From a virus, in IMG/VR virus record IMGVR_UViG_3300030061_000766, positions 1 through 36,565 of that record: 36,565 nt of DNA; one strand, 5' to 3'. The notes below the pieces were generated by a model that worked only from the letters and a program-made list of their open reading frames with translations, was not told the origin of the DNA and did not search any database. Of this stretch, positions 168-34,739 are shown piece after piece. The stretch's first letter is position 1, and every line of letters starts with the position of its first letter. Both the position numbers and the translations under genes were made by a program.

Positions 168-1019
168 ATGACTGATACAACAAATCAACAAATAGAGGAA
201 CCAAAAAAGAAATCGCCTACCCCAACACCATATATGGGTAAAGATAGGGTTTTTGAAAGTAAACAAGAAATTACTAAAGAAGCAGACGCATTGCGATCTA
301 CAGAAACTAGTAACGAAGAATTACCAAAAAAAACCACAGGCACCGAGCATGATTACAAAAAGCGATATGATGATTTAAAATCACATTATGATACAAAATT
401 ATCTACATGGAGAAAAGAAAAAGAAGAAATTCTTACTCAACTCCAAACAAATAAAAAATCAAATGTGGTAATGCCAAAAACACCAGAAGAAATTGAAAAA
501 TTTAAACAAGAAAATCCTGATGTTTATGACGTTATTGAAACTATCGCAAGTATGAAAACAGACTCTAGAGTACAAGATGTTGAAGAACATTTGAATATTC
601 TACGAGAAAAAGAGTTTGAGCTTGAAAGGCAAAATGCACAGAGAGAACTTTTAAACCATCACTCAGATTTTCTCGAACTGAAAGATAGTGAAGAATTTAC
701 TGAATGGTTAAAAGATCAACCTGATAATATTGCTGAAGGTGTCACTAAAAATGCCACAGATGTTAGATGGGCCGTGAGGACTATTGACCTTTATAAACTT
801 GACAAGGGTATTGGTAAACCAAAGTCTAAATCTAGAAAACCTAGTGATGCTGCAAAAGTTGTAAAAACAACTACAGCTTCGCAAGACATTACAGATAAAA
901 ATCAAGGAAAAAAGATTTGGACATATGAAGAGATTTCTCGATTAAAACCGCATGAATTTGTGAGGCTAGAAGAAGAAATTGATCTAGCAAATCGAGAGGG
1001 TCGAATCAGAGAACAATAA
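168..1019 (+). CDS. Capsid scaffolding protein
   Basis: This 283-residue, highly charged protein is rich in Lys and Glu, with a long predicted helical/coiled-coil middle (a KKRYDDLKSHYD-type segment followed by a Glu/Arg-rich helix) and no recognisable enzyme motif. Scaffolds direct procapsid assembly and leave before or during packaging. The position between a probable portal end and the capsid gene is the T7-like order, and a C-terminal region like DLYKLDKGIGKPKSKSRK fits marine podovirus scaffolds as I know them. An ATG at 156 is in frame, but GGAGGTGA at 158-165 sits just before the ATG at 168, so I use 168; a start at 156 would place the ribosome site inside the gene. Confidence 0.8.
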   Translation: MTDTTNQQIEEPKKKSPTPTPYMGKDRVFESKQEITKEADALRSTETSNEELPKKTTGTEHDYKKRYDDLKSHYDTKLSTWRKEKEEILTQLQTNKKSNVVMPKTPEEIEKFKQENPDVYDVIETIASMKTDSRVQDVEEHLNILREKEFELERQNAQRELLNHHSDFLELKDSEEFTEWLKDQPDNIAEGVTKNATDVRWAVRTIDLYKLDKGIGKPKSKSRKPSDAAKVVKTTTASQDITDKNQGKKIWTYEEISRLKPHEFVRLEEEIDLANREGRIREQ

Positions 1020-3225: not shown

Positions 3226-3881
3226 TGATATATAAATTATTTACAGATGAAGAAACAGATAGTATACTTGCAAGACTTAATAAAAATTTTGTAGATGGTA
3301 AAAATACACAAAAGTTAAGTAATGTTTACAGTATAAAAGAAAACAAAGAAACATTAATTACTCCAAAAATAGATGAATATATAGGTAATATATTTAAAAA
3401 TAAAAAAGCTATTAAAAAAATATATGCACCTACAAAAATAAAAAATAGAATTTACAATAACTACAACACCAACGATTTTTATGATTACCATGTAGATTCT
3501 TTTCAATCATCTGATAGTAAAATGTTATACAATTATGGTTTTACTATAAGTTTAAGTGATGACTATGAGGGTGGAGACTTTGTTTTACAAACAGAAGCAG
3601 GTGAGATAGCATATAATATTGGTAAGGGTCAGATAGTAATCTTTCCAATTATCTATCCACACAAAGTAACACCAATTATTAGTGGGCGTAGACAAAATAT
3701 TATAGGTTGGTTTGAGTCTAATATTACTTATGAACAATCATTTGTACTAAAAAATTTAGAAGAAATTGCAACTATAAATTTAGAATTATTACAGAGTAAC
3801 ACAGAGCAAGTTTTATTTAAAGAATTATTGATAAAGACCGCATTAGTTCAAAATTATTTAGTAACAAAATGGGGTTTTTAA
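3225..3881 (+). CDS. 2-oxoglutarate/Fe(II) dioxygenase, PKHD type, copy 2
   Basis: This 218-residue paralogue of the preceding gene starts inside its stop codon (TAATG). The triad is H89, D91 (YDYHVDSF) and H146, with R156 for 2-oxoglutarate. The two proteins share long runs with small changes, such as GGEFFLQTE versus GGDFVLQTE and the endings LVQSYLKKAWGK versus LVQNYLVTKWGF, so they arose by tandem duplication and then diverged. All catalytic residues are intact in both, so neither looks like a decaying copy. The substrates may differ. Low GC and many AAA/AAT codons match copy 1. Confidence 0.85.
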   Translation: MIYKLFTDEETDSILARLNKNFVDGKNTQKLSNVYSIKENKETLITPKIDEYIGNIFKNKKAIKKIYAPTKIKNRIYNNYNTNDFYDYHVDSFQSSDSKMLYNYGFTISLSDDYEGGDFVLQTEAGEIAYNIGKGQIVIFPIIYPHKVTPIISGRRQNIIGWFESNITYEQSFVLKNLEEIATINLELLQSNTEQVLFKELLIKTALVQNYLVTKWGF

Positions 3882-3882
3882 A

Positions 3883-4602
3883 ATGAACATAGTAGAAAAA
3901 CAAAAGCAAGTTCATGGTAATATATTTAAACCTATAGCTGATACAGAAGTTTTAACTCCATTTGGACCAGTTATAGCCTATAAAAAATTATCAGATAAAT
4001 TTGTTAAAGAATTAAATTCTCATATTGATGATGATTTACCAGATCACTCAGATTATTTAGTTGGTAAAGTAAAACAAGAAACAAGATTTACAGATGCTAT
4101 AAGTAAAGTATTTATAGGTGAACTTGGTGGTTTTATTTTTGAATATTATAAATATTGTTTTGAACGTGCAAAAATGGTAGAGGATAGTTTACCTAGAGAT
4201 GTAGATTATCAATTAAATGTTATAAATGGTTGGTTTGTTAGACAATACGCAAATGAGTACAATCCAATGCACATCCATACAAACTGTTCAATATCTTGTG
4301 TAGGTTATTTAGCTTTACCAGAAAAGTTTGAAGAAGAATGTGAAGAAGATTATAAAGATCATCACCCTTCACATGGACATATACAGTTTAGTAATGGATC
4401 ACCTAATTGGATGGAAAGTTCAGGATTTGTTGCTAAACCAAGAGTAGGTGATTTTTACTTGTTTCCTTCAAAGTTATTACATACTGTATATCCGTTTTAT
4501 TCTGAAGGAGAACGTAGGTCGTTTAGTGTAAATATGGAAATAGCATCAGCACCAAAAGGATCATTAACAAATGACGGAAAAGAAAAAAAGAAAAAAAAGT
4601 GA
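3883..4602 (+). CDS. 2-oxoglutarate/Fe(II) oxygenase of a second subfamily (PF13759/TIGR02466-like)
   Basis: This 239-residue protein has probable metal ligands in YNPMHIHTNCS (H130, H132) and LLHTVYPF (H200), with R212 in RRSFSVNM as the likely 2-oxoglutarate contact. GDFYLFPSKLLH is the typical strand before the distal His. The H-x-H rather than H-x-D start and the overall spacing suggest the putative 2OG-Fe(II) family seen in many marine phages and hosts, not the PKHD type of its two neighbours. It ends in a Lys run encoded by an A-rich stretch that overlaps the next gene. Substrate unknown. Confidence 0.75.
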   Translation: MNIVEKQKQVHGNIFKPIADTEVLTPFGPVIAYKKLSDKFVKELNSHIDDDLPDHSDYLVGKVKQETRFTDAISKVFIGELGGFIFEYYKYCFERAKMVEDSLPRDVDYQLNVINGWFVRQYANEYNPMHIHTNCSISCVGYLALPEKFEEECEEDYKDHHPSHGHIQFSNGSPNWMESSGFVAKPRVGDFYLFPSKLLHTVYPFYSEGERRSFSVNMEIASAPKGSLTNDGKEKKKKK

Positions 4603-5435: not shown

Positions 5436-5671
5436 TGGCAATGGGAGTTCCACATTATTACAAAGATGGCAAACCGCTTGGTGCTGGCGGTATGGGTCAG
5501 TATCATAAAATGAAAGATGGTACATTACACTCAGGTAAAACACACACTAAAAGCAGTAAAAGACTTTTTCATTTTAATGAATTGTCTAAAACTGCAAAAT
5601 TAAAAGCTAAAAAAAATCAAGATACGTTTTTAAAGAAGAAAAAAAATGGCTCTAAAAAAATCACAACGTAG
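5435..5671 (+). CDS. Small basic protein with SSKRLFHFNELSK motif
   Basis: This 78-residue protein starts in the TAATG overlap with the preceding gene. It reads MAMGVPHYYKDGK, then HKMKDGTLHSGKTHTKSS, KRLFHFNELSKTAK and a Lys-rich tail. The pattern is that of a conserved small phage protein that often sits with the other Lys-rich proteins of this block. Its 3' end overlaps the next gene by 26 bases. Function unknown; the charge suggests binding to nucleic acid or inclusion in the virion, which is inference. Confidence 0.7.
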   Translation: MAMGVPHYYKDGKPLGAGGMGQYHKMKDGTLHSGKTHTKSSKRLFHFNELSKTAKLKAKKNQDTFLKKKKNGSKKITT

Positions 5672-5894
5672 TTTAAAGGCTTGGGGAAAACAAAAATGGC
5701 GTACCAAATCTGGCAAACCATCTGGAAAAACTGGAGAGAGATACTTACCAGAGAAAGCAATCAAAGCCCTATCATCTGCGGAGTATGCGGCAACGACAAA
5801 AGCGAAGCGAAAAGGAACAAAGCAGGGAAAACCATCTGTGAAACAACCGAAGAAAATTGCAGATAAAACTAGAAAGTATAGAAAGTTTAGTTGA
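5646..5894 (+). CDS. Lys-rich small protein, DUF5872-like
   Basis: This 82-residue protein has WGKQKWRTKSGKPSGKTGER, then YLPEKAIKALSSAEYAATTK and KQPKKIADKTRKY. The order of a WxTKSGKPS motif, a GERYLPEKA motif and ALSSxEYAAT is what I know from the DUF5872 family, found in phages and giant viruses and without assigned function. AAAGAAG precedes the ATG. The frame at 5681-5866 inside it is a shadow. It ends in TGATG, shared with the next start. Confidence 0.75.
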   Translation: MALKKSQRSLKAWGKQKWRTKSGKPSGKTGERYLPEKAIKALSSAEYAATTKAKRKGTKQGKPSVKQPKKIADKTRKYRKFS

Positions 5895-6022
5895 TGAGTT
5901 TGCCTACTTGTCAATGTCCTATTTGTGATGATCAAAATTGTTTTTGTGATTGTTCAAATTGTGATGATAAATATTGTACTTGTATGTGTCATTTTTTAAA
6001 AGAAAACGAAACGGATAAATAA
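5894..6022 (+). CDS. Cysteine-rich metallothionein-like miniprotein (42 residues)
   Basis: This 42-residue protein has ten Cys (6, 8, 11, 16, 18, 20, 23, 28, 30, 32) and His33. Residues 8-20 and 20-32 are two copies of CxxCDDxxCxCxC with a 12-residue period sharing Cys20. The dense CxC/CxxC spacing with almost no hydrophobic core is the signature of metallothioneins, which bind several Zn or Cu ions through thiolate clusters. Start and stop are locked into the operon: ATG overlaps the preceding stop (TGATG) and TAA overlaps the next start (TAATG), which strongly supports a real gene. Secreted Cys-rich peptides are less likely because no signal peptide is present. Metal type and role are unknown. 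Confidence 0.8.
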   Translation: MSLPTCQCPICDDQNCFCDCSNCDDKYCTCMCHFLKENETDK

Positions 6023-16140: not shown

Positions 16141-16697
16141 TGGCTAGAAAAAAACCAAATAAAAAACAACAACAATATGACAGAGATAAAATAGATCCTT
16201 TCTCTGTTCCGCCAGCAGGATATGGCTTAACTACACCTCCGGGTAAATGGGCTTGGGAACAACCACCAGAACACGTTGATGTTGAAGATGCTTATGAAGA
16301 AATAAAAGCAAAGATGATGGTTCCAGAAAATAGAATGACAATGATTCAATTAATTGATGCAGGTGTTCCTATTGAAACTCTAGTGCGTACTATCACATTT
16401 GCAGGATTTACAGAAGGTAAATTTACACCAGATGTAGCAGAAATTCTTAATCCCTTACTAGCTGTACACATGGCTATACAAGCAGACAAAGCAGGGATTA
16501 CACCAAGAATGTTAAATAATCCACCAAAAACATCAGTAGATAGTGATGTAGTCTTTGATATAATGAAAGATTTAAATCCCGAAAGATATTTACAATTAAT
16601 AGATATGCCTTTAGATGAAAGCGGAGAAGAAGAAGATCAACCAAAAGAAAAGAAAACGGCTGAAAACTTTATGGAAATGGAGAAAGTAGATGGGTAA
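16140..16697 (+). CDS. Conserved virion-region protein, acidic C-terminus
   Basis: This 185-residue protein has a basic start (MARKKPNKKQQQ), a segment YGLTTPPGKWAWEQPPEH, a helical middle with MTMIQLIDAGVPIETLVR and FAGFTEGKFTPDVAEILNP, and an acidic tail (DESGEEEDQ). The PPGKWAWEQPP and DAGVPIETLVRT motifs are ones I recognise from marine podovirus genomes next to ejection proteins. It starts on TAATGG and overlaps the next gene by 8 bases. Function unknown. Confidence 0.6.
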   Translation: MARKKPNKKQQQYDRDKIDPFSVPPAGYGLTTPPGKWAWEQPPEHVDVEDAYEEIKAKMMVPENRMTMIQLIDAGVPIETLVRTITFAGFTEGKFTPDVAEILNPLLAVHMAIQADKAGITPRMLNNPPKTSVDSDVVFDIMKDLNPERYLQLIDMPLDESGEEEDQPKEKKTAENFMEMEKVDG

Positions 16698-18774
16698 ATT
16701 AATGAAAGCAGCTGTTCTTGGTGGCATAGGACAAGCATTTACTGGATTTATGGAAGCTAAAGAAGCAAGAAGACAACAAGAAATTATGTTTGAAAGACAA
16801 GATAAACTAGCAAAAGAACAAAGAGAGTTTTCAGCAGAACAAGCTCAAATAGAAAGACAATCACGAGGATTTTTCTTACCGGGAGAAGATCGTAGTGGCT
16901 ATGATACAATGATAGCTCAACAATTACAGAGAAAAGAACTTGCGAAAAGAAAAAATGATAGCCTTGATCCTACTAAATTTTTGATAAATGGTGGTGCTAG
17001 GTTAAGAGGTGTTCCTGAGAGTGTTGCTGGTGCTGTACCTTCTCTTGATTTAAGTGCATTTAAAACTAGAGATGAAAGACAATTTGCAAGAGATGACGCA
17101 ATAATAAAACACGCTAACAAAGTTATTGGAGCAATGAGAGCAGAAGATAATACTTTATCATATAGAGATGCGTATCAACAACTATTAGAAAATAATCCTA
17201 CTTTTGGACAATCAATCAAAGATTTAATTTATTCTAGACATGATGAGGCAATGCAAAAAGGAGGTTCTGCTAAAGATACTATAGGAGTGCCTCTTCTCAT
17301 AACCGGACAAAGTTTATTTGCAGCTAGTCCACATCTTGCTGGTGTTGCTAGTGCAGCCATTGCAGAAAAAAATGAAAAGAATATGATGCCAGCTGCAAAA
17401 GAACTTAATGCAGGATGGAAGATAAGTGGACCTAGTGAGAACATGGCTGGTAGAGCACTCGGTAGTGTTTTTGCACATACAAAGACAAATTTAGGTCAGA
17501 GTTTACCACCAAGATTACAAAAATTAGCCAACGATAGATTTGCTAATCTTAACGATAGAATGATAAATGAAGATATATCTATGGAAGAATTTTATCGTGA
17601 AATGAAAAATCTCATGGGTGGTAATCCAACCGAACTACAAATGAGAACAGCATTTAAAGAAGCAAGTAGTTATTTTCAACCTGCTGTTACCGCCAGAGGA
17701 TTTTTAAAAGGTAGTGGACAAGGTGATGTAAATCCTAATTTTGAAATAGTACCTACAACTGCTTCTGATAGAGATAAATTACACGGAAGATCAGCAGTGG
17801 AATTAACAGGCACTACAGCTGCTATTGCAAAAATAGCATCTGAGGGTAATGTAGATGTTTCTCCTGCAAGTGCAAATATTAATAGAACAATTTCTACATT
17901 TACAACAATTTTTTCTGAAGGTTTAAGAGCTATAACAGGCGGTGCTGTTGATTTAACAGGACAAACGTTTGTGAAGGTTGGTACTGAAGATATAATAGGA
18001 GAAAACAAAGAACAAATTAGAGATTCTTTATTTAGTGAACTTGATTCTACTATTTCTAACATACAAAAAGACAAAAAAATAGTTGGGCTTTCAGAAGAAC
18101 AAACAGTAAATTTAAGTAAAAAATTACAAAAATTTAAAGCTGGATTAGCAAATAGTACAGATGATCAAACATATTTATTTAACTTTCAAAGAGTTAAACT
18201 AGCTTTCTTATACGCTAAGTTTATTCAAGGTGGTGGCGGTGGTAATGCTGTATCTAATGCTGACTTTGAAAGAAATTTTGATGCACTATTTGGTATTTAT
18301 AGTAGTAATAGAAATGTTGTATTGGCTGATATGATGAGAGGTATCGCTGCTATACATAATGATGCAAAAAATTCTATAGTAGATGCAGAAGATAGACAAA
18401 AATTTACAGCTAATCTTGGCGGTCAAAATAGATATTATATATCACCATCTGCAAAAAAATTAATACGAAATCATAATAATACAACAGGAGATTCGTTAAG
18501 TACACCGGGTTATCAATCAACAGCTAGATATTGGATTAATCAATTACATAATGGAGATGTGGAAAAGGCTTCACCTCTTTTAAGAGCAATGTTAGTATCT
18601 AGAGGTCAAAATGATTTAATACAAATTTTAGAAAAAGATGCTGGTGGAGAAGCCGGAGGAGGTGGAGAACAAATAATACCAGATCTTGAAGCTGCCGGTG
18701 GAGCAATAAATCAAAAACAAGATCAAGATCTTGGGGATAGTATAGCACCAAGTAATACAGGGGGTTCAAATTAG
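16690..18774 (+). CDS. Large internal/ejection protein
   Basis: The 694-residue protein has a helical N-terminus with MKAAVLGGIGQAFTGFMEAK followed by Arg/Gln-rich heptads (residues 20-60), a long central region without known motifs, a GGGGGN loop near residue 515, and a Gly/Gln-rich C-terminus. The N-terminal GGIGQAF helix is like those of virion proteins that form the ejection channel. GGAG lies 7 bases upstream of the ATG. The place between small internal proteins and the 1637-residue protein supports an internal core role. Confidence 0.6.
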   Translation: MGKLMKAAVLGGIGQAFTGFMEAKEARRQQEIMFERQDKLAKEQREFSAEQAQIERQSRGFFLPGEDRSGYDTMIAQQLQRKELAKRKNDSLDPTKFLINGGARLRGVPESVAGAVPSLDLSAFKTRDERQFARDDAIIKHANKVIGAMRAEDNTLSYRDAYQQLLENNPTFGQSIKDLIYSRHDEAMQKGGSAKDTIGVPLLITGQSLFAASPHLAGVASAAIAEKNEKNMMPAAKELNAGWKISGPSENMAGRALGSVFAHTKTNLGQSLPPRLQKLANDRFANLNDRMINEDISMEEFYREMKNLMGGNPTELQMRTAFKEASSYFQPAVTARGFLKGSGQGDVNPNFEIVPTTASDRDKLHGRSAVELTGTTAAIAKIASEGNVDVSPASANINRTISTFTTIFSEGLRAITGGAVDLTGQTFVKVGTEDIIGENKEQIRDSLFSELDSTISNIQKDKKIVGLSEEQTVNLSKKLQKFKAGLANSTDDQTYLFNFQRVKLAFLYAKFIQGGGGGNAVSNADFERNFDALFGIYSSNRNVVLADMMRGIAAIHNDAKNSIVDAEDRQKFTANLGGQNRYYISPSAKKLIRNHNNTTGDSLSTPGYQSTARYWINQLHNGDVEKASPLLRAMLVSRGQNDLIQILEKDAGGEAGGGGEQIIPDLEAAGGAINQKQDQDLGDSIAPSNTGGSN

Positions 18775-21700
18775 TGACTGATTTAACAGAAGGAATGAAG
18801 ATAGATCCGGCAGCTAGAACTGGTCCATTAGACGTTGATCAGGTTTTGCCAGATGTTTCTCCAGAATTAGGTCCAAATATACCAGAAGTTGTTGAACAAA
18901 TAGATCCAAATAGAGAAGAAAGATTAATAAAAGAACAACAAGAACGTACACGTTTGCGTAATCTTGGTATTATAAGTGAACCTACAGAATTAAAATACAA
19001 ATTACCTAAGAGTGGTGTTGAAAAAACTCTTATGGCTGATGTAGATATGCGTCATGCTTTTACACCAAAAGATGATGTACAAAATTTTGATACAAGTCTT
19101 ACTTCAAAAAATGGCACAGCTTTGTTTGCTGTAAACTTTCCTAGACGACAAGATGGAAGTGTTGGTAATGAAGATGGCAGTCCTTTTACTTTAAACCAAT
19201 TTATAGTAAATAGGGTAATACCTTTTGTTTCTGCACAACTTGGTGATACAAATCTTGGTGCTATAGCTACCTCTAGTGATCAAGCAAAGCGTTCAATACG
19301 AGGAATGATAACTAAAAATACTTACGATATATTAAGAAACAATCGTAATGCTTTAGAATATTTTAGAGAAAATGATCCGCAAGGAATAGCCGGTCTTGAA
19401 AAAACAATGATGGAGTTAAATACTGTTTTAGGTATAAACGAATACGGCAAAGAATTTAAAGCTGGTGATGAAGCAGAAGTTCTTAGAAGAACAACAGATC
19501 CAGAATTTGCTCCTGAGTCTGGTAGATTTCTTTCTCTAGACTTTACTCTTCCTAAAATTATTGGTGGTCTAAAAACAGTTACTCTTGATGATCCGTTTAA
19601 TCAAGAAATGGTAGACTTAGCTAAAAAAACAGATGAGTCAATTACCAATGCTAAACGTGGTATAAATTGGCATCTTGCTTATGCAGGTGCATTATTTACT
19701 GAACTTGCTAGTGGTATTACTGGTATATATGAGAAAAAAGATGGTAAACCTTTCGGTAGGTATATTACTGGACAAGAATCTCGTAACAGAACACTAACAG
19801 ATTTCTTTGAAGATGGAATAGGTAAAGCACTAGGGTTTACACCAAAAGGTGTTGGTGAGTTGGCTAATACTTTAGTAAAATATTTGCCTCTTTCTGAAAC
19901 TTTAGGTTATACAAAATTTACTGAAGCAGAATTAAATAACCCTGATCTTAAAGTAAGCGACATCACAGGTGCAAGTTCTGAGAGTGTATCTGATTTAATT
20001 ATGTACAGCATAGCAAAAACAACACCATCTTTCTTTGGGTTTAGCCCAGAAGATATTGCAAATCTTGATAAGGTTACAGAAGAAATAGGTATGGAAGCAG
20101 ATGTAACTATTCCGGGTGCTAGACCTAGAGTAGATGAAGTAACAGGACAAGTTGCGTTTGAAGGAAAACCTTTAGGAGCAACACTATCAGATATTTTTGG
20201 TGGTTCATCAGCATTGTTTGGTATCAATGCAGTTTCAACTGGTATGTTAAGAAGAAGTGGTAAAGATTTTGTTGCTAAAGCTAAAACAGGTGAAGATGCT
20301 TTTAACATCATGCAAAATGGTAAGATTAGTAGAGAACAATTAACCAGAGCTTTTAACGCACTTGATGAAGGAAAAGATGTTGCTGGTTTAGGAACATTAA
20401 ATCTTAGAATACCACTTACATCAAAAAGATTTTTAAAAGAAAGTATAATTAGAAGCACCAATCATCCTATGCGAACAGCAGCAGGTATGCAACTTTTTTA
20501 TGCTATGAGTATAGGTGCAGCTGAAGGTGCTCAACAATTAATAACAGATGAGAATGGTAACTTTGTATCTCCTCTTGGTGGTAAATTATCAAATGCAGGA
20601 GCAGTTGGCTTTACTCTTTTTTCTGCTATAATGGCTCCAATATTAGCCTTGCCTGTAGGTAGAGGAATAATAAAATATGGATATGATAAAACTCTAGCAG
20701 AAAAAGTGTCAATGTTTTCATCTCCAGAATTTTTTGAAGTTATGAAAGCTGTAAAAAATCGTTCTGGTGCTTCTTTTCGTCAAACAAAAAAAATAGACAA
20801 AATAATACAAGATGAATTAATTAATTTACGAGATGAATTTCCAGAACAGTTTGATCAGATATACAAATCATTAGATGAAGTAAATAAAGGTAATGCTCTA
20901 TATCTTGAGAATGGTAGAAAAGCAGGTATTCCAGAAGCTGAACTACAACAAGATATAAAAAATATGAAAGAAATTACTGACCATGCAACAACTTATTTAT
21001 TTATGGCATCAGCGAGAAGTTTTTATGATACAAAAGCTGTAACGAACATAATAAAAGGTAGTTTAAGTAGAAAAAGAATGAAAAACTTAGCCGATCAAGC
21101 TAAAGATGCTGCTATAGTTGAAGCTAATGCTAATAATGCTCAATTAACTCTTACTAACCTCATAATAAAACAAATAAGAAGATTAGAGGAGAGACAAACA
21201 GGGACAGCAGGTATTAAAGATATAGAGAAAATATCTGGTCTTGATCGTGCAATGTTAAAGCAACAAGAACAGCTTGCAAAAATGTTACGAGATAATATAG
21301 GTGGTGTTAATGCAAACGAACTTATACCTGCAATGAAAACACTATTTAACACCGCAGATGATTTAGCTAATGGTGTTGTTGATACTGCTGAAGCTACTCG
21401 TCTAGTAAAAAATGCTCTGGCAGGTTTAACCGATGACGTAGATAAAAATATATTTATTTCAAATGTTTTTATGGCTGAAGAAATAGGAACAATAAAAGGT
21501 TTTGAAAAAATAATTGATGAAGCTATACCTAATCTTCGTAAAGCTATAGATGAACGAGACACATCAATAAAAACATTTTCTGGTTTGGTTGCAAACAATG
21601 TTACTTTTGAAGGTACAGGAACACCAGTAATACCTGTTAATAAAGCTACAGCACAACACAAAATTATAATGAAAGCCTATGATGAAGCAAAGAAAAAATC

Positions 21701-23687
21701 TGATGCTTTATATGAAAAAGTTTATAACAAAATAGGAGGAAAGCAAGAACTATATCCTGTACAAAAACTTAGGGATATACTAGAAACACAATCAACTGCT
21801 TTAGACTATGGACCTGCTGCTGCTTCTAGATTAAAAACTATTTTAAGAAAATCATTAAAACCATTAGAGGCTGAAGCTAAAGAACTTGGTCTTGAAGCCC
21901 CAAGAGATTCTATTACTTTTAAAGAAGCACATCAACTTCGTTCAGATTTAGCTGATGCTTTATTTAAAGAATATAGAACTGCTAATCCCGATGGGGCATA
22001 TATAAATTTACTAGGTGAAACTATAGATACTATGGATGATTCTATAGAGGCATTTTTAGAAAGACCTCAAAATGTAACTATAAAAAATAATTTTGAAGAA
22101 GCACAAGCAAATTACAGAGATAATCTTGCTGGCTTATTTTATAATAGTAGAGTATTACGCACAACAAAAGAAGAAAAATTTAGCAATCTTTTTACTAAAA
22201 TATTTAATGCTAAAAGTATGGATGGACAACGAGATGCTTTTGATAAAATGTTTCCAGAAGGTAGTGCAAATAGAAAACAAGCTGAAAACTTACTAAAAGA
22301 AGAAATGATAAGAGTTGCTATGGGTAATGAAAGAAATATGTCGCAACAACAATTTGAAATTGCCCTTAGAAAAAAAGTTAGAAATCTTGAAGTGGGTATG
22401 TTTGGAACAAAAGCTGAAGGTGGTTTTTTAGATATTCTTTTAGGTAGTGAAAAAAATGCAAAAGATTATAAAACTTTAGATACCTTCTTACCAGAAATAA
22501 CAGAGACTGGTGCTGTTAATACAGCTGCTCCTATGGTTAAAATAGATAAAGAGTCTAGATCTGAATTGTCTAAATTAAAATTTTACAATGAAAAACAACT
22601 AGCATTAAGAACAGGCGACAAGTTAAACGAGTATTTAAATAGTGCTGTAAAAGAAATTAGTAAAAGAAATCTTGGTTCCGTAGATGAGATTAATAAAGGT
22701 TATTGGAAATCATTAGCTAATATAGATGAAAAAAGTGGTTTTACTCAAACTACACTAGATCATATTTTAGGTTCTGGTAGAAGCAATGATGGCTCACAAG
22801 CTGCTGATAGATATGTATCATTAATTAAAGACATGGAAAATTTAGTTGGTGTTGATGATGCTGATAACTTTGCAGAACTTTTAAATCGTGCATTACTTTT
22901 TGATGTCTTCGATCAAAATATAAAAAGAACAAAAGCACTTAAAGACGTTCAACCAGAAGGTCAGAAATTTATTCTTAAAGAAAATGCAGAGGCTCGTAGA
23001 AAAATTTGGATTCAACATGAAGATTTATGGAATATAGCTTTTGGAAAACATGCAAGAAGTATAGCTCATGCTATTGATATGACTGTATTAGCAGAATCAC
23101 CAGCAAGAAGTGTTTTACAGTTTGCAGAAACAGTCAATAAATTATCAGCAAATGGTTTACTCTCTAGGGCTTGGGGTGCTGCTAGAGGTGTTGTTAGTTT
23201 ACGTTACATAGGTTCAGAAATTTTATTAAGAAATATGTTAAATGATAAGAGTGGTATACTACTGAATGTATTGTCTACACCAGAACTATCTCCTTATATA
23301 ATGGATGCTGTACGTTACGGACAAACACCAGCTAGGATGCAAAACTATTTTAAAACACAATTTATGGCTGCTATGATAGCTCAAAAAGATGATCAAAGCG
23401 ATATAGATGACATACAAAAACATATGAATGGGTTTTTTAAAGAAGCTGTTAAACAAAAACAAGATCCAGTACAACTAATCATGTCTATGTATTTTATATC
23501 AAAAAATCCAGAATTAAGAAAACAACTACAAATTGATTTACAAAGAGCAAATCAAGGATTGCCATCAAAACTACCAACAATAATGAGAGAAAGTGTAAGT
23601 ACACCAAGAGGGGTCAAAGAGAGATTAAGACCTAGAGCGGAAGATAGTCCTCTCTTAGATCAAATGAAAAATCTTGGTCTACTGTAA
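18774..23687 (+). CDS. Very large internal virion (ejection) protein
   Basis: At 1637 residues this is the largest product in the window. It uses a GTG start in a TAGTG overlap with the preceding stop. It is almost wholly helical and charged, with hydrophobic stretches near residues 590-630 (LFYAMSIGAAEGAQQL, then LFSAIMAPILALPVGRG) and no signal peptide. Podovirus ejection proteins of this size (T7 gp16 is 1318 residues) line the DNA channel; some carry an N-terminal transglycosylase, but I see no such motif here. The gene ends in TAATGAG, overlapping the next start. Confidence 0.7.
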   Translation: MTDLTEGMKIDPAARTGPLDVDQVLPDVSPELGPNIPEVVEQIDPNREERLIKEQQERTRLRNLGIISEPTELKYKLPKSGVEKTLMADVDMRHAFTPKDDVQNFDTSLTSKNGTALFAVNFPRRQDGSVGNEDGSPFTLNQFIVNRVIPFVSAQLGDTNLGAIATSSDQAKRSIRGMITKNTYDILRNNRNALEYFRENDPQGIAGLEKTMMELNTVLGINEYGKEFKAGDEAEVLRRTTDPEFAPESGRFLSLDFTLPKIIGGLKTVTLDDPFNQEMVDLAKKTDESITNAKRGINWHLAYAGALFTELASGITGIYEKKDGKPFGRYITGQESRNRTLTDFFEDGIGKALGFTPKGVGELANTLVKYLPLSETLGYTKFTEAELNNPDLKVSDITGASSESVSDLIMYSIAKTTPSFFGFSPEDIANLDKVTEEIGMEADVTIPGARPRVDEVTGQVAFEGKPLGATLSDIFGGSSALFGINAVSTGMLRRSGKDFVAKAKTGEDAFNIMQNGKISREQLTRAFNALDEGKDVAGLGTLNLRIPLTSKRFLKESIIRSTNHPMRTAAGMQLFYAMSIGAAEGAQQLITDENGNFVSPLGGKLSNAGAVGFTLFSAIMAPILALPVGRGIIKYGYDKTLAEKVSMFSSPEFFEVMKAVKNRSGASFRQTKKIDKIIQDELINLRDEFPEQFDQIYKSLDEVNKGNALYLENGRKAGIPEAELQQDIKNMKEITDHATTYLFMASARSFYDTKAVTNIIKGSLSRKRMKNLADQAKDAAIVEANANNAQLTLTNLIIKQIRRLEERQTGTAGIKDIEKISGLDRAMLKQQEQLAKMLRDNIGGVNANELIPAMKTLFNTADDLANGVVDTAEATRLVKNALAGLTDDVDKNIFISNVFMAEEIGTIKGFEKIIDEAIPNLRKAIDERDTSIKTFSGLVANNVTFEGTGTPVIPVNKATAQHKIIMKAYDEAKKKSDALYEKVYNKIGGKQELYPVQKLRDILETQSTALDYGPAAASRLKTILRKSLKPLEAEAKELGLEAPRDSITFKEAHQLRSDLADALFKEYRTANPDGAYINLLGETIDTMDDSIEAFLERPQNVTIKNNFEEAQANYRDNLAGLFYNSRVLRTTKEEKFSNLFTKIFNAKSMDGQRDAFDKMFPEGSANRKQAENLLKEEMIRVAMGNERNMSQQQFEIALRKKVRNLEVGMFGTKAEGGFLDILLGSEKNAKDYKTLDTFLPEITETGAVNTAAPMVKIDKESRSELSKLKFYNEKQLALRTGDKLNEYLNSAVKEISKRNLGSVDEINKGYWKSLANIDEKSGFTQTTLDHILGSGRSNDGSQAADRYVSLIKDMENLVGVDDADNFAELLNRALLFDVFDQNIKRTKALKDVQPEGQKFILKENAEARRKIWIQHEDLWNIAFGKHARSIAHAIDMTVLAESPARSVLQFAETVNKLSANGLLSRAWGAARGVVSLRYIGSEILLRNMLNDKSGILLNVLSTPELSPYIMDAVRYGQTPARMQNYFKTQFMAAMIAQKDDQSDIDDIQKHMNGFFKEAVKQKQDPVQLIMSMYFISKNPELRKQLQIDLQRANQGLPSKLPTIMRESVSTPRGVKERLRPRAEDSPLLDQMKNLGLL

Positions 23688-28427: not shown

Positions 28428-28803
28428 ACTTTTCTACTAAATAACTAATCGTATTCTTAATAAACTTTAATGTTCTAGGTGCATTATCCGCCATTATACT
28501 ATTTTCCTCTTCTTGTAAAAATTGACTTTCCAAAAACACAATAGCTCTGCGATCCAAGTATTTTACTACTTTATCTACATCTCTACCAAATTTAGTTGTA
28601 TTCTCTCGATAATTACTATCTGTCCATTGAGCTTCTACACTAGAAGAGGGAGCCTTGCTAATTGTTAATGGCAAACAGTTTTGAGCTTCTCTCATGTACA
28701 CCTTTCCACCTTCTTTTTTTTCACTCTCAGTATAGATAAAAAAACATCGAGGATTACCTATAACATCTTCTTTTTTTATACCATGATACAATATGAGCGG
28801 CAC
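28399..28803 (-). CDS. Conserved hypothetical protein of the replication operon
   Basis: This 134-residue protein uses a GTG start in a TAGTG overlap with the exonuclease stop, with GGAG 8 bases upstream. It has LYHGIKKEDVIGNPRCFFIY, then SSVEAQWTDSNYRENTTKFG, RDVDKVVKYL and a helical C-terminus. The polar, mixed alpha/beta pattern suggests a globular protein, and the YREN and KFGRDVDKVV motifs look conserved. I know no function. It lies between two nucleases in a tight operon, so a DNA-processing accessory role is possible. Confidence 0.7.
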   Translation of the reverse strand: MPLILYHGIKKEDVIGNPRCFFIYTESEKKEGGKVYMREAQNCLPLTISKAPSSSVEAQWTDSNYRENTTKFGRDVDKVVKYLDRRAIVFLESQFLQEEENSIMADNAPRTLKFIKNTISYLVEKYEPQYVKTD

Positions 28804-29669
28804 TACATTTGCTCCTTATTTAATTGTGAATACCACACCATAGGAGGATTTTTTGCTTCTGATGCAACCTTGTGATGTAGTTTTGAGTTAGACCAACAAT
28901 GACTTTTAAAATTACAAAAACTACAAGTAGTATTTAATAATCTATTTCCTGTTGACTTTCCTCTAAATCTTTCTGGAACATCTTCTAACTTTTGTAATGG
29001 AATACTTTTATCTTGTAAGGCATTTATATTATATGAAGCTATAGCCAATGCAGATGCACGCTCATCATCTTGTATGTTAGGGGCAGGACATATTTGTATC
29101 TCTCCAGAAGATTTATTAATTACTATCCAACCACCAAAAGGTTTATTATCTGCTTCTGCGTATAAATATCCTTGCACTACATAACCAAAAGGATCGTTGT
29201 CTTTTACACGACTATAACTTGTAAATTTACTAGTATAAGCATAGGGGCTTGCGGTTTTAATATCCCAAACCTTACCATCAATAATTATATCAAGTGTACC
29301 TTTTAATTGTACGCCTTCTATTTCTAAAGTTACAGGCTTTTGATAATCTTCTACATTAACACCAGCTTCTTTCATTTCTATGTAAAGCAAAACTTCAAGC
29401 AGATCTCCAAATAAAAATCTGTTTATTGCATTGTATTCCATAGTTGTTTCTGTTTTTACATTATCTCTTTCTAGCTGTTGTTGGCACAAGGGTTTACCTA
29501 GTCCAGACATACGCATAGACCAATCTCTTTTCTTATCACCAAATTGTTTTTCTAGAGCTTTTCCACATTCTTCTTTAAAAAATAAAAGTAAATCGGGAGA
29601 GATTTTTTTCTCCCCCGAAATTACTTGTTGTAAATAAAGTTGTAAATACTCCTTAATGAGATTATTCAT
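28803..29669 (-). CDS. PD-(D/E)XK exonuclease with Fe-S cluster, Cas4/RecB-type
   Basis: The 288-residue nuclease has the core at residues 124-140: GTLDIIIDGKVWDIKTAS with D127, D136 and K138, and Q166 in VVQGYLY. Four Cys are placed as in Cas4/AddB-like nucleases: C62 (PLCQQQ) before the core and C249, C252, C258 (CSFCNFKSHC) after it, the layout of a [4Fe-4S] cluster that locks the fold. It probably degrades or resects DNA during replication and recombination, in place of T7 gp6. It starts within the last codons of the SSB-like gene. Confidence 0.88.
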   Translation of the reverse strand: MNNLIKEYLQLYLQQVISGEKKISPDLLLFFKEECGKALEKQFGDKKRDWSMRMSGLGKPLCQQQLERDNVKTETTMEYNAINRFLFGDLLEVLLYIEMKEAGVNVEDYQKPVTLEIEGVQLKGTLDIIIDGKVWDIKTASPYAYTSKFTSYSRVKDNDPFGYVVQGYLYAEADNKPFGGWIVINKSSGEIQICPAPNIQDDERASALAIASYNINALQDKSIPLQKLEDVPERFRGKSTGNRLLNTTCSFCNFKSHCWSNSKLHHKVASEAKNPPMVWYSQLNKEQM

Positions 29670-30492
29670 CTAGTGAGTCAACTATCTCCACATCTTCAAA
29701 GTCCTTGCGAGACTCCTTATATTTTTCTTCTATGTCAGAATTATGAAGATTAACTATATCCATAAAACTTTCAAGTAGTGGTACATCTCCTTTCGGAACA
29801 AATTCAACACTATCCTTAACTTCAATGTTGGCTTTGTAAAAAATGTTGCCACCATACTTCTGTTTAGATGTGGTTAAAAGTGCTCTTGTATTAAACAGCA
29901 ACTTACCTTGTTTTTCTAAGGTTTTAATCCAATCGCTGACAGGCATGAAGTTACTACCCTTTGCGTACCAAGCATGAGGTACCGCTTCTGCATTGCCAGA
30001 CAAAGCTACTGTTCCATATATAATTTGAGAACACTTTATACCTGCTTGGAGTGTCCTTGCAGGGTCATCTGGAGCAAGAAGATCTAACTCTTTTCGATCT
30101 ATCTTACCACATTTCAGTCCACCTGTAGTATCAAAAAACTTATCTCCAAATGATGACGCTTGGATTGTCATAGACGAATAATTTTGTTGTCCTTGATCCC
30201 AAACACTATACATATATCTTCTTAAAAAAGGTCGAAAGATAACAGTATCGCTGTGAACTGTTTCACCATTTGCATCTCTTACACGCCACTTTCCACGAGG
30301 AAGACTATTGCCGTCATCATCTTCGGTATTGTGCTCAATCGAAAGTCTAGGTAAATACGCCTTAGTGCTTTCGCTTGATGTAGACGACAGATCCTTTTGA
30401 CCTAACATTGCCATCAGAGTATCTGTGTCCATCTCTTTTGCGGTAACCAAATCTTTTATACTTGGTGTCTCCGCTACTGCTACGTCTGTCAT
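29662..30492 (-). CDS. Putative single-stranded-DNA-binding protein
   Basis: This 276-residue protein has a flexible acidic N-terminal region (with SSTSSESTK), a beta-rich core (KWRVRDANGETVHSD, FRPFLRRYMYSVWDQG, QIIYGTVALSG) and a very acidic C-terminus (DFEDVEIVDSLDE). An acidic tail for partner binding is typical of SSB-type proteins, and the place between polymerase and exonuclease fits. AAGGAG lies before the ATG. The fold cannot be assigned by eye, so the function is inferred. Confidence 0.6.
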   Translation of the reverse strand: MTDVAVAETPSIKDLVTAKEMDTDTLMAMLGQKDLSSTSSESTKAYLPRLSIEHNTEDDDGNSLPRGKWRVRDANGETVHSDTVIFRPFLRRYMYSVWDQGQQNYSSMTIQASSFGDKFFDTTGGLKCGKIDRKELDLLAPDDPARTLQAGIKCSQIIYGTVALSGNAEAVPHAWYAKGSNFMPVSDWIKTLEKQGKLLFNTRALLTTSKQKYGGNIFYKANIEVKDSVEFVPKGDVPLLESFMDIVNLHNSDIEEKYKESRKDFEDVEIVDSLDE

Positions 30493-30493
30493 G

Positions 30494-32032
30494 TTATTGC
30501 AACTCCTTTGTGCTGACAGTTTCTAAATTAGACCAATCGTTACCGATTTTTAATTCGATCCCGATTGGCATATTGTATTCAACACCATACCTTCTTTGAC
30601 ATTCCTTTCGTATGCCTAGCATGGCTTCTTCTAGTAAATGTATCGCTATTTCCTCTTCTTGAGGGTGTACATCCAAGACTATACTATCATGGACTGTATT
30701 ACAAATCAAGCTCTTTATTTGCTTTTCTTTTATTTTATTATGTAGTGATATTAATGCAACAGGTAGTAGATCTGCGGTTGCAAACCCTTGTACCGGATAG
30801 TTTTTTATTTGTGTAGCATTAGAATACCCACCATTTGCATAACTTTTTACGTTTGGAAACTGATACTCCCTGCCTGATGGTAGGGTTATTTTTTTGCGTA
30901 CAAGAGCCTCACGACCTAATCTTTGATGCCATTCTTCTATACCTTTATACTTCTCAAGAAATGCTTCATAGTATCTTACTTCACTTGTAGTTCCTGTCTT
31001 GCCGCCATATAGAGGTTTAAAAGTGTGAGCTTTTGCTTCTTGTCGGCTAACACCAATGATGCTTGCAGTATATGAGTGAACATCAACCTCATCTTTAACA
31101 TCTTGTAAGACTTGTTTATCTCCTGCAAGAAACCCTGCTACTCTAAATTCTAATTGGCTATAATCTCCTTCAAGTATCTTGCCACCTTCAAATCGACTAA
31201 CAATAGCTTCTCTAACAGGAAACGTAGTGCTTCTAGGCATATTCTGAAAGTTAGGATTGCGAGAGGATAATCTTCCGGTAGCTGTTACACATTGCATAAA
31301 CTGTGGGTGTATAAATCCATCCTTGCCTGTGTTACTTTTTATACTATCTATAAAAGTATTAAGGTAAGTAGACAAAGCATTATATCTCATATACTTCTGT
31401 AAAAACTGTCTTTCTTTTCCATGCACCTGTAACATCTTTTCTTTGATTGTAGTTATATCTGTTTTAAATCCATGTACAGAAAGATCTTTTTCGTTTAGAG
31501 GATTAAGACCAAGACCCGCTCTTTCTTTGGTGTTTACATAAACAACACCTCTACCAAAACACATCTTACATTTACGGGGCATACCATAGGTGCCATCTTT
31601 TTTCATAAAATCAACTGTACCTCTTCCTCTACAGGCTCTACAAGTTTTCTTGTAAGTTTTTAAAAAAGCTCCAATCTTATACTGATACTTACTTCTAAAT
31701 ATACTTGGTGTAGATACTCTAACAAATTTCTTTTTTCTCTTTCCATCTTTAACAACTGTACCTAAATCAAAAAATTCTTTCCATTCTTTTTTATCTCTTA
31801 CAACTTTAGAATAAAATAACTTTGATCTATCTTCTGCTGATGCCAAATTGATTGGTGTATCTCCACACAACTCTTTAATCATGGTATTTAATTCATGTTC
31901 TATCTCTGTGTGTTCATCTCTAAAATCTTTTTCAATCTCAAGAAGTTTAGGAACATCAACCTTGATACCATCATTTTCTATATCACATAATGTTCTGCAA
32001 ACATCCATGTGTAGTTTAACTGTAGCTTTCAT
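30494..32032 (-). CDS. Family A DNA polymerase, polymerase domain with N-terminal DnaJ-type zinc module
   Basis: This 512-residue product is the palm/fingers/thumb part. It has motif A (GDYSQLEFR, D290), motif B (R330, K334, F338, Y342 in RQEAKAHTFKPLYGG), motif C (VHDS, D449) and ATGRLSSRNPNFQNMPR. At 131-158 lie two CxxCxGxG repeats (C131, C134, C155, C158), a half of the DnaJ zinc region, as reported for phage HMO-2011 polymerase. The residue at the E. coli 762 position is Phe. The 3'-5' exonuclease domain is absent and encoded by the gene before, in an ATGA overlap. Glu after the motif C Asp is replaced by Ser. Confidence 0.93.
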   Translation of the reverse strand: MKATVKLHMDVCRTLCDIENDGIKVDVPKLLEIEKDFRDEHTEIEHELNTMIKELCGDTPINLASAEDRSKLFYSKVVRDKKEWKEFFDLGTVVKDGKRKKKFVRVSTPSIFRSKYQYKIGAFLKTYKKTCRACRGRGTVDFMKKDGTYGMPRKCKMCFGRGVVYVNTKERAGLGLNPLNEKDLSVHGFKTDITTIKEKMLQVHGKERQFLQKYMRYNALSTYLNTFIDSIKSNTGKDGFIHPQFMQCVTATGRLSSRNPNFQNMPRSTTFPVREAIVSRFEGGKILEGDYSQLEFRVAGFLAGDKQVLQDVKDEVDVHSYTASIIGVSRQEAKAHTFKPLYGGKTGTTSEVRYYEAFLEKYKGIEEWHQRLGREALVRKKITLPSGREYQFPNVKSYANGGYSNATQIKNYPVQGFATADLLPVALISLHNKIKEKQIKSLICNTVHDSIVLDVHPQEEEIAIHLLEEAMLGIRKECQRRYGVEYNMPIGIELKIGNDWSNLETVSTKELQ

Positions 32033-32562
32033 TGTCTAGACCATTCTTGTAAGGAAATATTTAAAATATCAGCCTGTGCAAATGCTAACTCATAAGCTGA
32101 CTTTACATCTTGTACACCATACTCTGTAAGTTTATCATAAGGTATTTCATCTACACCTTTTCCAGCTTTTATAAACTCTTCAAAGATGTGAGATTTTTTC
32201 TCAGAAACATTGCGTCTTTTACATGAAGCACTAAGAGTTAATTCTCTATTTAATCCTCTAGCTAATAAATACTCAACGCCCATTGTGTCCCAAACTTCTC
32301 CGCCATACTGAAAACCACAAGCTAGTAACCATTGTAAATCATATTTTATATTGTGTCCAATCAATAAAGTTGTTCGGTTTAAAATATCTTGTAAGATGTC
32401 TATATTATTTTCTGTAGGCGGCTCTTCTGCATGATAGAAACATAAATAATTTTGTTCTCCACCATTTGTAAGAAAGCCAACCGACACCAATATATTATTT
32501 CCATTGTACGGCATACTGTTACCTTTAGTAAAAGTATTTTCTATATCAAGACAAGTAATCAT
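32029..32562 (-). CDS. Stand-alone 3'-5' proofreading exonuclease (DnaQ/Pol I type)
   Basis: The 177-residue protein has the DEDDy motifs: D6 and E8 (CLDIENT), N71 and D75 (GHNIKYDLQWL), D92 (WDTMG) and Y148-x3-D152 (EYGVQDVKSAYE). This matches the exonuclease half of family A polymerases and ends where the fused proteins pass into the polymerase part. Start overlaps the helicase stop (ATGA) and its stop overlaps the polymerase start (ATGA). It should proofread with the separately encoded polymerase. Confidence 0.9.
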   Translation of the reverse strand: MITCLDIENTFTKGNSMPYNGNNILVSVGFLTNGGEQNYLCFYHAEEPPTENNIDILQDILNRTTLLIGHNIKYDLQWLLACGFQYGGEVWDTMGVEYLLARGLNRELTLSASCKRRNVSEKKSHIFEEFIKAGKGVDEIPYDKLTEYGVQDVKSAYELAFAQADILNISLQEWSRQ

Positions 32563-33782
32563 ACACTATACCTTCCTGTTGCAATATTTATTTGAACCGG
32601 CACATTACCATGCCACCCATTTATTTTATTCTTACTTACTGCTAAGAAGCGAGTATTGTTTTCATCTATTCCCATTTGTTTACCAATACCTATAATTAAA
32701 TCTGCTTCTCCGGCTTTGCCTGTACGACTGTTATCAAGCATAGAATAATCTATTACTTCTCTTTCGTGTGCTTCATAACTAGCTTGTGATACAGCCCACA
32801 CCAAACAATTATGTCTTTTGGCTAACTCTCTACCCATAACATAAATCTCTTTTAGTCTTTCATCTCCACGAGTGTATGTACCATCAATCTTAACTTTATC
32901 CATTTGATCTATAAATACTACGTCTGGTTTATTCAATGTAGTAAAATTTACAATCTCTTTGACACTAGTTCCTACACTATCCATCACAACTAAATTAGCA
33001 TCAACCTTTTCTTTATACTCTTCTATGTACCTATCCTTTTGTTTTTGCAGAGTATTCTTGTCAATATCAAAATACGCTGTGATAATTCTAAGTTTAACTT
33101 TCTTGGCTATTTCTTCATTAGCCCAATAATGTACTTTCTGTCCTCTGGATATGTAGTGTGATGCAAGATGAGCACAAAAACTACTCTTACCTATCTCTGG
33201 TCTAGCAAAGATAATTCCAAAGTCTCCACGATTTAATCCTTGTACGTTTTGTTCTAACGTATGTAATCCAAAAGTAAAATCTGGTTCTTTAACTGTAGAC
33301 TTTATTAATTCCTCAAAGTCCTCGTGTATAATTCTAAAACTATCTTCTCCATCAAGACTGTTAGATGCAACCTTTTCTATCATTTGTGAGATCTCAGAAA
33401 ATGCCATAGAGTTTTCGCCTGTCCAAAAACCAACAGCTTTCTCTCCAATCTGTCTAGCCATATCTCTTTGCCAAAAAGTTTTAGCCCAATCATACGCTAG
33501 GTTTACATCAACCTTTTTAACAGCCAACAAATCATCTATAAGATCAAAAGTTTGTAAGGCTTTACTATCAGGCATAGCCGGAAACATTATCTTATGTACT
33601 GCTACTAATGTTGTAGCATCAAGACTTTCAATCTCCTCATATTTAAGATGGGCTTCTCTAATGGTGTGAGCCAATGATCGCCAATCTTTAGGAAACATAA
33701 CTGGTGTTATAAAGTTTTTGGTTCTATCCCACACAGATTTATCTAGCATGGTAGCTAGAACATTTAATTCTATGTCTTGCAT
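32559..33782 (-). CDS. Replicative DNA helicase, DnaB/T7 gp4 C-terminal type
   Basis: The 407-residue helicase has a helical N-terminal part (1-165), Walker A FARPEIGKSS (K199), the catalytic NEE (residues 222-224), Walker B VVFIDQMDKVK (D292), the H3 Gln in WAVSQAS (Q333), and a C-terminal KNKINGWHG loop. Gly is replaced by Glu inside the P-loop (ARPEIGKS instead of ARPGxGKS), which is unusual but not inactivating by itself. It unwinds the fork 5' to 3'. GGAGGA sits just before its ATG. In T7 helicase and primase are fused; here they are separate. Confidence 0.9.
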   Translation of the reverse strand: MQDIELNVLATMLDKSVWDRTKNFITPVMFPKDWRSLAHTIREAHLKYEEIESLDATTLVAVHKIMFPAMPDSKALQTFDLIDDLLAVKKVDVNLAYDWAKTFWQRDMARQIGEKAVGFWTGENSMAFSEISQMIEKVASNSLDGEDSFRIIHEDFEELIKSTVKEPDFTFGLHTLEQNVQGLNRGDFGIIFARPEIGKSSFCAHLASHYISRGQKVHYWANEEIAKKVKLRIITAYFDIDKNTLQKQKDRYIEEYKEKVDANLVVMDSVGTSVKEIVNFTTLNKPDVVFIDQMDKVKIDGTYTRGDERLKEIYVMGRELAKRHNCLVWAVSQASYEAHEREVIDYSMLDNSRTGKAGEADLIIGIGKQMGIDENNTRFLAVSKNKINGWHGNVPVQINIATGRYSV

Positions 33783-33922
33783 TATCCTCCTGCTTTCTTC
33801 ATTCTACTTTCAGAAGGTCGGAGTTTCTTTCTATGATTTAATGGTGGTTTTTTAAACCTACGTCTTGTTTTCTTTGCTGGTGCATAAGTGTTTGTACCAT
33901 ACATTGCTCTTTTCTTAGCCAT
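33782..33922 (-). CDS. Small Arg/Lys-rich protein between primase and helicase (46 residues)
   Basis: A 46-residue, very basic frame starts at 33922, inside the primase 3' end, and ends in TAATG at the helicase start. It reads MAKKRAMYGTNTYAPAKKTR, then KKPPLNHRKKLRPSESRMKK and AGG. Fit to both neighbours and the ribosome site GGAGGA in its last codons, which serves the helicase, support a real gene. It is likely nucleic-acid binding; no family is recognised. Confidence 0.65.
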   Translation of the reverse strand: MAKKRAMYGTNTYAPAKKTRRRFKKPPLNHRKKLRPSESRMKKAGG

Positions 33923-34739
33923 TTTTAAATACCAATTCTTCTAGTTGTTCTGGGTTCATGTTTTTTAAATCTACTTCTGGAAATAAAACAGAAGAATATT
34001 TTACCTTGTGTTTTATCGTATCACAAATCATCATACTTTTCAATACTGCATCTTTATCTAAACATACCAATACTTTTTCATAATTTTTTCTTGTAAGATA
34101 ATGTAATAATATTTCAGATAATATAGTACCACACATAGCTATTCCTACAACATTTTTCATCTTTGAAACAACACAAGCTGATGGAATATCTTCAACTAGG
34201 ACAGCTATGCTGCCACATCCTATCTTGTAATCTGCTGATGTTTTTGCATATTTAAACCATTTTGGTTGAGAACTTACTTTAAGAGATCTACCTACGGCAT
34301 TGATTACTCTATTACTTTCTAAATCTTTTACTAAAAATACTATGCGGTCTTGTTGCGGATCATATTTTACACTGATGTGATCTTGAATAAAAAGGTCATA
34401 ACATTGTACCTTTTTTAAATATGCAATACAGGCATCTTTATTATTATCTATAGAAACTAAATTAGATAAATGTATTTCATCCTGTATCATAGTTGGAATA
34501 TCTGTGGCTTTAGAAAATAATCCATTCTTTAAATTAGTTTTTTGTAATCCAACTTTTTTATATCCTTTTACTTCACAACTAGCATCAAAACAATTATATA
34601 CGACAACCATTGATGTAGGTAAATACATAGCTGAGAAAGTATTTCCACTTCCACACTCAGGACAATCAGAACGAACTCGACCTAATTCTATAGCGTCATC
34701 AAGTAAATATTCAATATTTTCATTAATTGTTAATGTCAT
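33915..34739 (-). CDS. DNA primase, zinc finger plus TOPRIM
   Basis: The 274-residue protein has an N-terminal zinc ribbon with C26, C29, C50 and C55 (CPECGSGNTF and CFDASC), and a TOPRIM part: E183 in VLVEDIPSA and D228 and D230 in CLDKDAVL. This is the T7 gp4-type primase without its helicase. It makes the RNA primers for lagging-strand synthesis. Its 5' end overlaps the small basic gene. The fold is shorter than DnaG, as expected for a phage type. Confidence 0.85.
   Translation of the reverse strand: MTLTINENIEYLLDDAIELGRVRSDCPECGSGNTFSAMYLPTSMVVVYNCFDASCEVKGYKKVGLQKTNLKNGLFSKATDIPTMIQDEIHLSNLVSIDNNKDACIAYLKKVQCYDLFIQDHISVKYDPQQDRIVFLVKDLESNRVINAVGRSLKVSSQPKWFKYAKTSADYKIGCGSIAVLVEDIPSACVVSKMKNVVGIAMCGTILSEILLHYLTRKNYEKVLVCLDKDAVLKSMMICDTIKHKVKYSSVLFPEVDLKNMNPEQLEELVFKNG

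Follow-up and report, generated by a model that had tools for sequence, protein, structure and literature searches.

Separately encoded predicted proofreading exonuclease and family A DNA polymerase in a clade of uncultured phages related to HMO-2011

How should a phage locus be read in which the exonuclease and polymerase parts of a family A DNA polymerase lie in two overlapping genes? Family A polymerases usually, though not always, include a 3'-5' exonuclease domain within the chain itself. The polymerase of phage HMO-2011 and of its type, which the original prediction took to be a single chain, is indeed annotated and described as exonuclease, DnaJ and polymerase in one polypeptide (PMC9038755, PMC6918029). 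The window analyzed here, 36,565 nucleotides of a linear 41,316-base IMG/VR virus record that may be a fragment, holds two open reading frames at the corresponding place, and on rechecking them the previously claimed coordinates and ATGA overlap proved exact (Table 1). On the minus strand the exonuclease frame ends in AGA CAA TGA, overlapped by the polymerase ATG at 32032. The helicase stop in turn overlaps the exonuclease start (32559-32562), which makes helicase, exonuclease and polymerase a train of overlapping genes. The full 41,316-base record encodes a single PF01612 protein and a single polymerase.

Table 1. The split polymerase locus and neighboring replication genes, in window coordinates
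Feature	Position	Strand	Evidence and remarks
Conserved gene directly 3' of the polymerase in HMO-2011-type phages	29662..30492	-	24% to HMO-2011, 32% to HTVC033P; no Pfam or PHROG match
PD-(D/E)XK / Cas4-like exonuclease, replication module	28803..29669	-	phrog_1990
Family A DNA polymerase without exonuclease domain, 512 aa	30494..32032	-	ORF, PF00476 and model; corresponds to Klenow 522-928
Two CXXCXGXG zinc knuckles, CRACRGRG and CKMCFGRG	31547..31642	-	polymerase residues 131-162, in the thumb insertion
ATGA junction, polymerase ATG over exonuclease TGA	32029..32032	-	also in close relatives
Exonuclease C-terminal tail, residues 170-177 and stop	32029..32055	-	outside the Klenow exonuclease domain; helix 171-176 in the model
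Stand-alone DEDDy 3'-5' exonuclease, 177 aa	32029..32562	-	ORF, PF01612 and model; corresponds to Klenow 350-518
DnaB-like replicative helicase	32559..33782	-	Pfam; used as phylogenetic marker
DNA primase	33915..34739	-	phrog_47, 1.4e-13

Judged by its capsid, tail and replication genes, the phage is related to the HMO-2011 type. Its capsid protein is homologous to that of the type (44% to HMO-2011, 64% to HTVC033P); no match to a terminase large subunit was found in the linear record of 41 kb, possibly a fragment. Far more conserved than either the capsid protein or the polymerase is an 82-aa protein (5646-5894, plus strand; 84% to HTVC033P, 69% to HMO-2011), overlapped by an antisense ORF at 5630-5935. 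Also on the plus strand, three consecutive genes at 2581-4602 match 2OG-Fe(II) oxygenase families (phrog_61, phrog_61 and phrog_81), and two large proteins of 694 and 1637 aa, encoded at 16690-23687, had no PHROG match at 1e-3.

A stop and a start overlapping within four bases, in a phage whose cultured relatives have the fused gene, could reflect a sequencing or assembly error in which a single-base slip broke the frame of one chain. Using the polymerase and exonuclease of the window and two relatives as queries, we scanned viral contigs and obtained about 300 loci. By frame analysis, 125 of the distinct polymerase genes were split and 114 fused; this ratio is not an estimate of abundance, since one of the queries came from a fused phage and the fused count reflects it. 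The ATGA junction, which the original prediction had proposed to look for in related genomes, was present in every one of the 13 loci in the cluster closest to the window (some contigs being counted more than once), and the search with the exonuclease added further contigs of this cluster; in all, the junction occurs in about a dozen contigs besides the window's own. Among the split genes as a whole there are about 30 different spacings between exonuclease and polymerase, the extremes being an overlap of several tens of bases and a separation of 1.5 kb, and both alternative frames are used. In the subclade of loci L254, L253 and L246, 0.4-1.5 kb of other small ORFs lie between the two genes. 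Since one slipped base cannot account for such varied spacings and intervening ORFs, the single-base error that had been offered as the alternative is rejected, and we regard it as hardly credible. The natural split proposed for this polymerase is thus borne out against its one-chain relatives by separate frames in 125 distinct genes, and PF01612 and PF00476 fall in different ORFs, as expected for an exonuclease encoded as a protein of its own. From these comparisons of contigs we conclude that the split is real and inherited, and that it defines a large clade of uncultured, mostly marine phages.

The intervening ORFs are variable small cargo genes, found at L254, L253, L246, L059, L067, L240 and L244; the first of them often encodes a possible helix-turn-helix protein ending near 'GHWMITKPW'. 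In a collection of bacterial and archaeal genomes we found four HMO-type relatives; two of them (L319 and L322) extend far enough upstream and are fused, and the others end before the junction. A DNA-level search of named phages gave no match, the phage collection searched contained no cultured member of the split clade, and a literature search, with subscription journals largely outside its coverage, found no report of this split.

The smaller protein has the features of a PolA-type DEDDy exonuclease, with four acidic residues and a tyrosine on an RNase H-like fold. Its ORF matched PF01612 at 1e-6 (Pfam) and contains all five DEDDy residues (D6, E8, D75, Y148 and D152), which are invariant across 30 split and 14 fused representatives apart from one fragment that lacks the first motif. 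The structural model (pLDDT 91) superimposes residues 1-169 on Klenow 350..518 (Z 16.7, 2.5 A, 160 aligned). The larger protein matched PF00476 at 1.9e-52 (Pfam) and carries motifs A, B and C of family A, with D290 and H448-D449-S450 invariant. Its model, built from 39 sequences (pLDDT 87), resembles Klenow, Bst, Taq and Pol theta (Z about 29-31), and residues 1-504 correspond to Klenow 522..928 (Z about 29, 3.0 A) and to Bst 470..876. No 3'-5' exonuclease domain was detected in this chain: Pfam gave no PF01612 match, and the model begins at Klenow 522. The ratio dN/dS among close relatives is 0.07-0.12 for the exonuclease and 0.06-0.11 for the polymerase, and by sequence both halves look functional.

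The original prediction also held that the polymerase starts where the fused proteins continue. This agrees with tblastn alignments to HTVC033P and HMO-2011, which begin at residue 4 or 1, and with the alignment of model residue 1 to Klenow 522. Because the two chains correspond to Klenow 350-518 and 522-928, the models place the cut exactly where the exonuclease domain meets the polymerase domain, leaving an eight-residue exonuclease tail outside the Klenow exonuclease domain.

The original prediction placed the zinc knuckles near the new N-terminus as a possible docking site, an idea that the analysis does not support. The zinc ('DnaJ') module starts at residue 131, after the first thumb helices; the DnaJ_CXXCXGXG Pfam match over residues 126-165 is below threshold. 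In a profile alignment, polymerase residues 3-73 fall on chain positions 180-245 of Bst, the first stretch of its thumb (i-Evalue about 0.02, weak but collinear), and from about residue 189 the alignment continues at Bst position 258, which indicates that about 115 residues, including both knuckles, are inserted in the thumb. By analogy with Klenow, the thumb would face the DNA duplex. The fused relatives carry the zinc module equally, and it is therefore not a docking adaptation that followed the split. The second knuckle is changed from CXXCXGXG to CXXCXXKG in the polymerases of L043, L053, L037, L075, L202, L074 and L063.

Several observations bear on how the second gene is translated. A Shine-Dalgarno-like 4-mer at good spacing precedes 72% of the split polymerase starts, compared to 25% of random ATGs. 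In the split relatives this sequence usually lies within the last exonuclease codons; it is weak in the window, where termination-reinitiation at the overlap is consequently the likelier route. The tail of the stand-alone exonucleases is conserved as a hydrophobic or aromatic residue, an acidic pair, W/L/F and often a further aromatic residue. This tail might be a new docking peptide, a tempting reading; in most lineages, however, its codons hold the GAGGA-type Shine-Dalgarno sequence of the next gene, and ribosome binding by itself could account for much of the conservation. Programmed ribosomal frameshifting could instead join the two frames into a fused protein, and a slippery-like T_TTA_AAT heptamer does occur about 30 nt ahead of the stop codon of the exonuclease (about 32062-32068, minus strand). 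However, a -1 shift at this heptamer meets a TAG that precedes the polymerase ATG by two codons, so the heptamer probably occurs by chance. Across the clade a frameshift fusion fails because both alternative frames and long spacers are in use, with other genes between in some relatives. We therefore consider frameshifting very improbable.

The history of the split was reconstructed from three gene trees. In a polymerase tree with outgroups, the fused HTVC033P is sister to all split lineages together with a second fused lineage, represented by L063, L074 and L202 (99/99). The helicase tree unites the split lineages in one clade (96/96) with the fused L063 lineage as its sister, and the exonuclease tree agrees with it, weakly. 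The full polymerase tree, by contrast, nests the fused lineage beside the split L043 and L075 (99/98), and an AU test on the full polymerase rejected monophyly of the split genes (p 0.015). Such nesting would follow from repeated fission and fusion, with the L063 lineage being a re-fusion; the altered second knuckle, which lies in the N-terminal part of the polymerase and is common to this lineage and its split sister group, points the same way. Yet a single split clade was not rejected for polymerase residues 1-290 (p 0.49) and was rejected for residues 291-460, the palm and fingers (p 0.005). The significant conflict is confined to a part where recombination can explain it, and the helicase tree sets the lineage outside the split clade, as does the exonuclease tree, weakly. 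On these grounds re-fusion is disfavored and appears unlikely; it concerns the history of the pair rather than its working. Over about residues 291-460 (window numbering), the polymerases of L063, L074 and L202 are unusually like those of L043, L053 and L075, as if recombined. The trees are most simply read as a single fission, after which a split and a fused lineage exchanged a palm/fingers segment.

The sequences establish that the gene is split, where the cut lies, that the split is inherited, that the active sites are intact and that both proteins are under selection. The detached exonuclease might serve as a free 3'-5' nuclease in end trimming, nucleotide recycling or degradation of host DNA, with the polymerase non-proofreading like exonuclease-deficient family A enzymes. 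The stand-alone exonuclease ExnV1 (PDB 7r0t) is soluble and non-oligomerising and binds metal and nucleotide (PMC9629493), which is compatible with independent action, as is the drifting apart of the two genes in one subclade. On the other hand, the exonuclease is retained upstream of the polymerase, without loss, at every split locus with more than 700 bp of upstream sequence, and it is under the same level of constraint as the polymerase. The two genes have stayed next to each other in a clade within which polymerase identity falls to about 50%. An unattached nuclease is accordingly an unlikely explanation.

We consider it probable that the pair is instead a two-subunit family A replicase that arose by a single fission, is co-translated and reassembles non-covalently. 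A one-chain exonuclease-polymerase ancestor, like that of HTVC033P and HMO-2011, would have been cut a single time between the two domains, probably when the linker changed frame and a new start codon arose. Since then, neighboring genes, most of them overlapping, would have supplied the two proteins, through termination-reinitiation, a Shine-Dalgarno sequence within the last part of the exonuclease gene, or both. The predicted polymerase subunit comprises thumb, palm and fingers, the thumb carrying the DnaJ-like zinc module; the putative proofreading subunit is the detached DEDDy 3'-5' exonuclease. They most likely rejoin along the old, Klenow-like interface, and mispaired primer ends would still pass from polymerase to exonuclease in trans. 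Against this model stand the subclade with genes between exonuclease and polymerase, which has lost tight coupling, the weak Shine-Dalgarno sequence of the window, and the full polymerase tree, although its conflict with a single split clade lies in the palm/fingers segment. A fuller version, with a dissociable proofreading subunit from one clean fission, a later palm/fingers exchange between split and fused lineages, and fidelity possibly tuned by the ratio of exonuclease to polymerase, has in our estimate about an even chance of being correct.

What is new is a whole clade that encodes its putative proofreading exonuclease as a protein of its own, cut exactly at a domain boundary and missed by length-filtered surveys. 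The census of HMO-2011-type phages kept DNA polymerases larger than 540 aa (PMC9038755), so that split polymerases of 512-524 aa would be left out. Fused relatives, the split clade and its fused sister lineage form a natural series, which allows testing whether the covalent linkage of proofreading matters for the fidelity and speed of a family A polymerase.

Among known systems, the closest are HMO-2011, HTVC033P, CRP-1 and others, which have the same order of exonuclease, DnaJ-like knuckles and polymerase. The HMO-2011 type also shares the neighborhood of primase, helicase, polymerase and Cas4-like nuclease as well as homologous capsid and tail genes, and in HMO-2011 and HTVC033P, whose polymerases are 41-44% identical to that of the window, the polymerase likewise directly follows the helicase. 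The difference is that they encode it as a single gene, giving one chain of about 680 aa rather than two of 177 and 512 aa. Family A polymerases in two genes or pieces, not far from that of the window in sequence space, also occur in the OM43 phages MEP401 and MEP402, the Vibrio phages ICP2 and ICP2_2013_A_Haiti, and Alcaligenes phage QDWS535, but there the cut lies inside the polymerase domain and the exonuclease stays on the N-terminal part. A small ORF or HNH endonuclease separates the pieces in MEP401 and ICP2, and an intron or homing-endonuclease origin was suggested for the MEP401 split (PMC10580990); the junction in the window, a four-base overlap with zero intervening DNA, lacks any such element. 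The QDWS535 polymerase (L091, 3500-5415) is annotated as two genes overlapping by one base. Compared by annotation, gp25 of Pseudomonas phage LUZ24 (Bruynoghevirus), a 'DNA polymerase exonuclease subunit', resembles the window exonuclease in being a separate gene beside primase and helicase, but it lies more than 2 kb from the polymerase genes, which are themselves in parts. ExnV1, a crystallised PolA-type exonuclease from a viral metagenome, is similar to the window exonuclease model (Z 14.7); its authors consider it most likely the product of a truncated gene, and the accessible part of their report names no partner polymerase (PMC9629493). Beyond family A, E. coli DNA polymerase III also places proofreading on a separate subunit, with epsilon held to alpha by its own specific contacts. 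The gp43A/43B polymerase of the T4-like Aeromonas phage 25 is likewise assembled from separate pieces, which co-purify and are active (PMC2988022), although the two enzymes belong to the unrelated polymerase families C and B, respectively.
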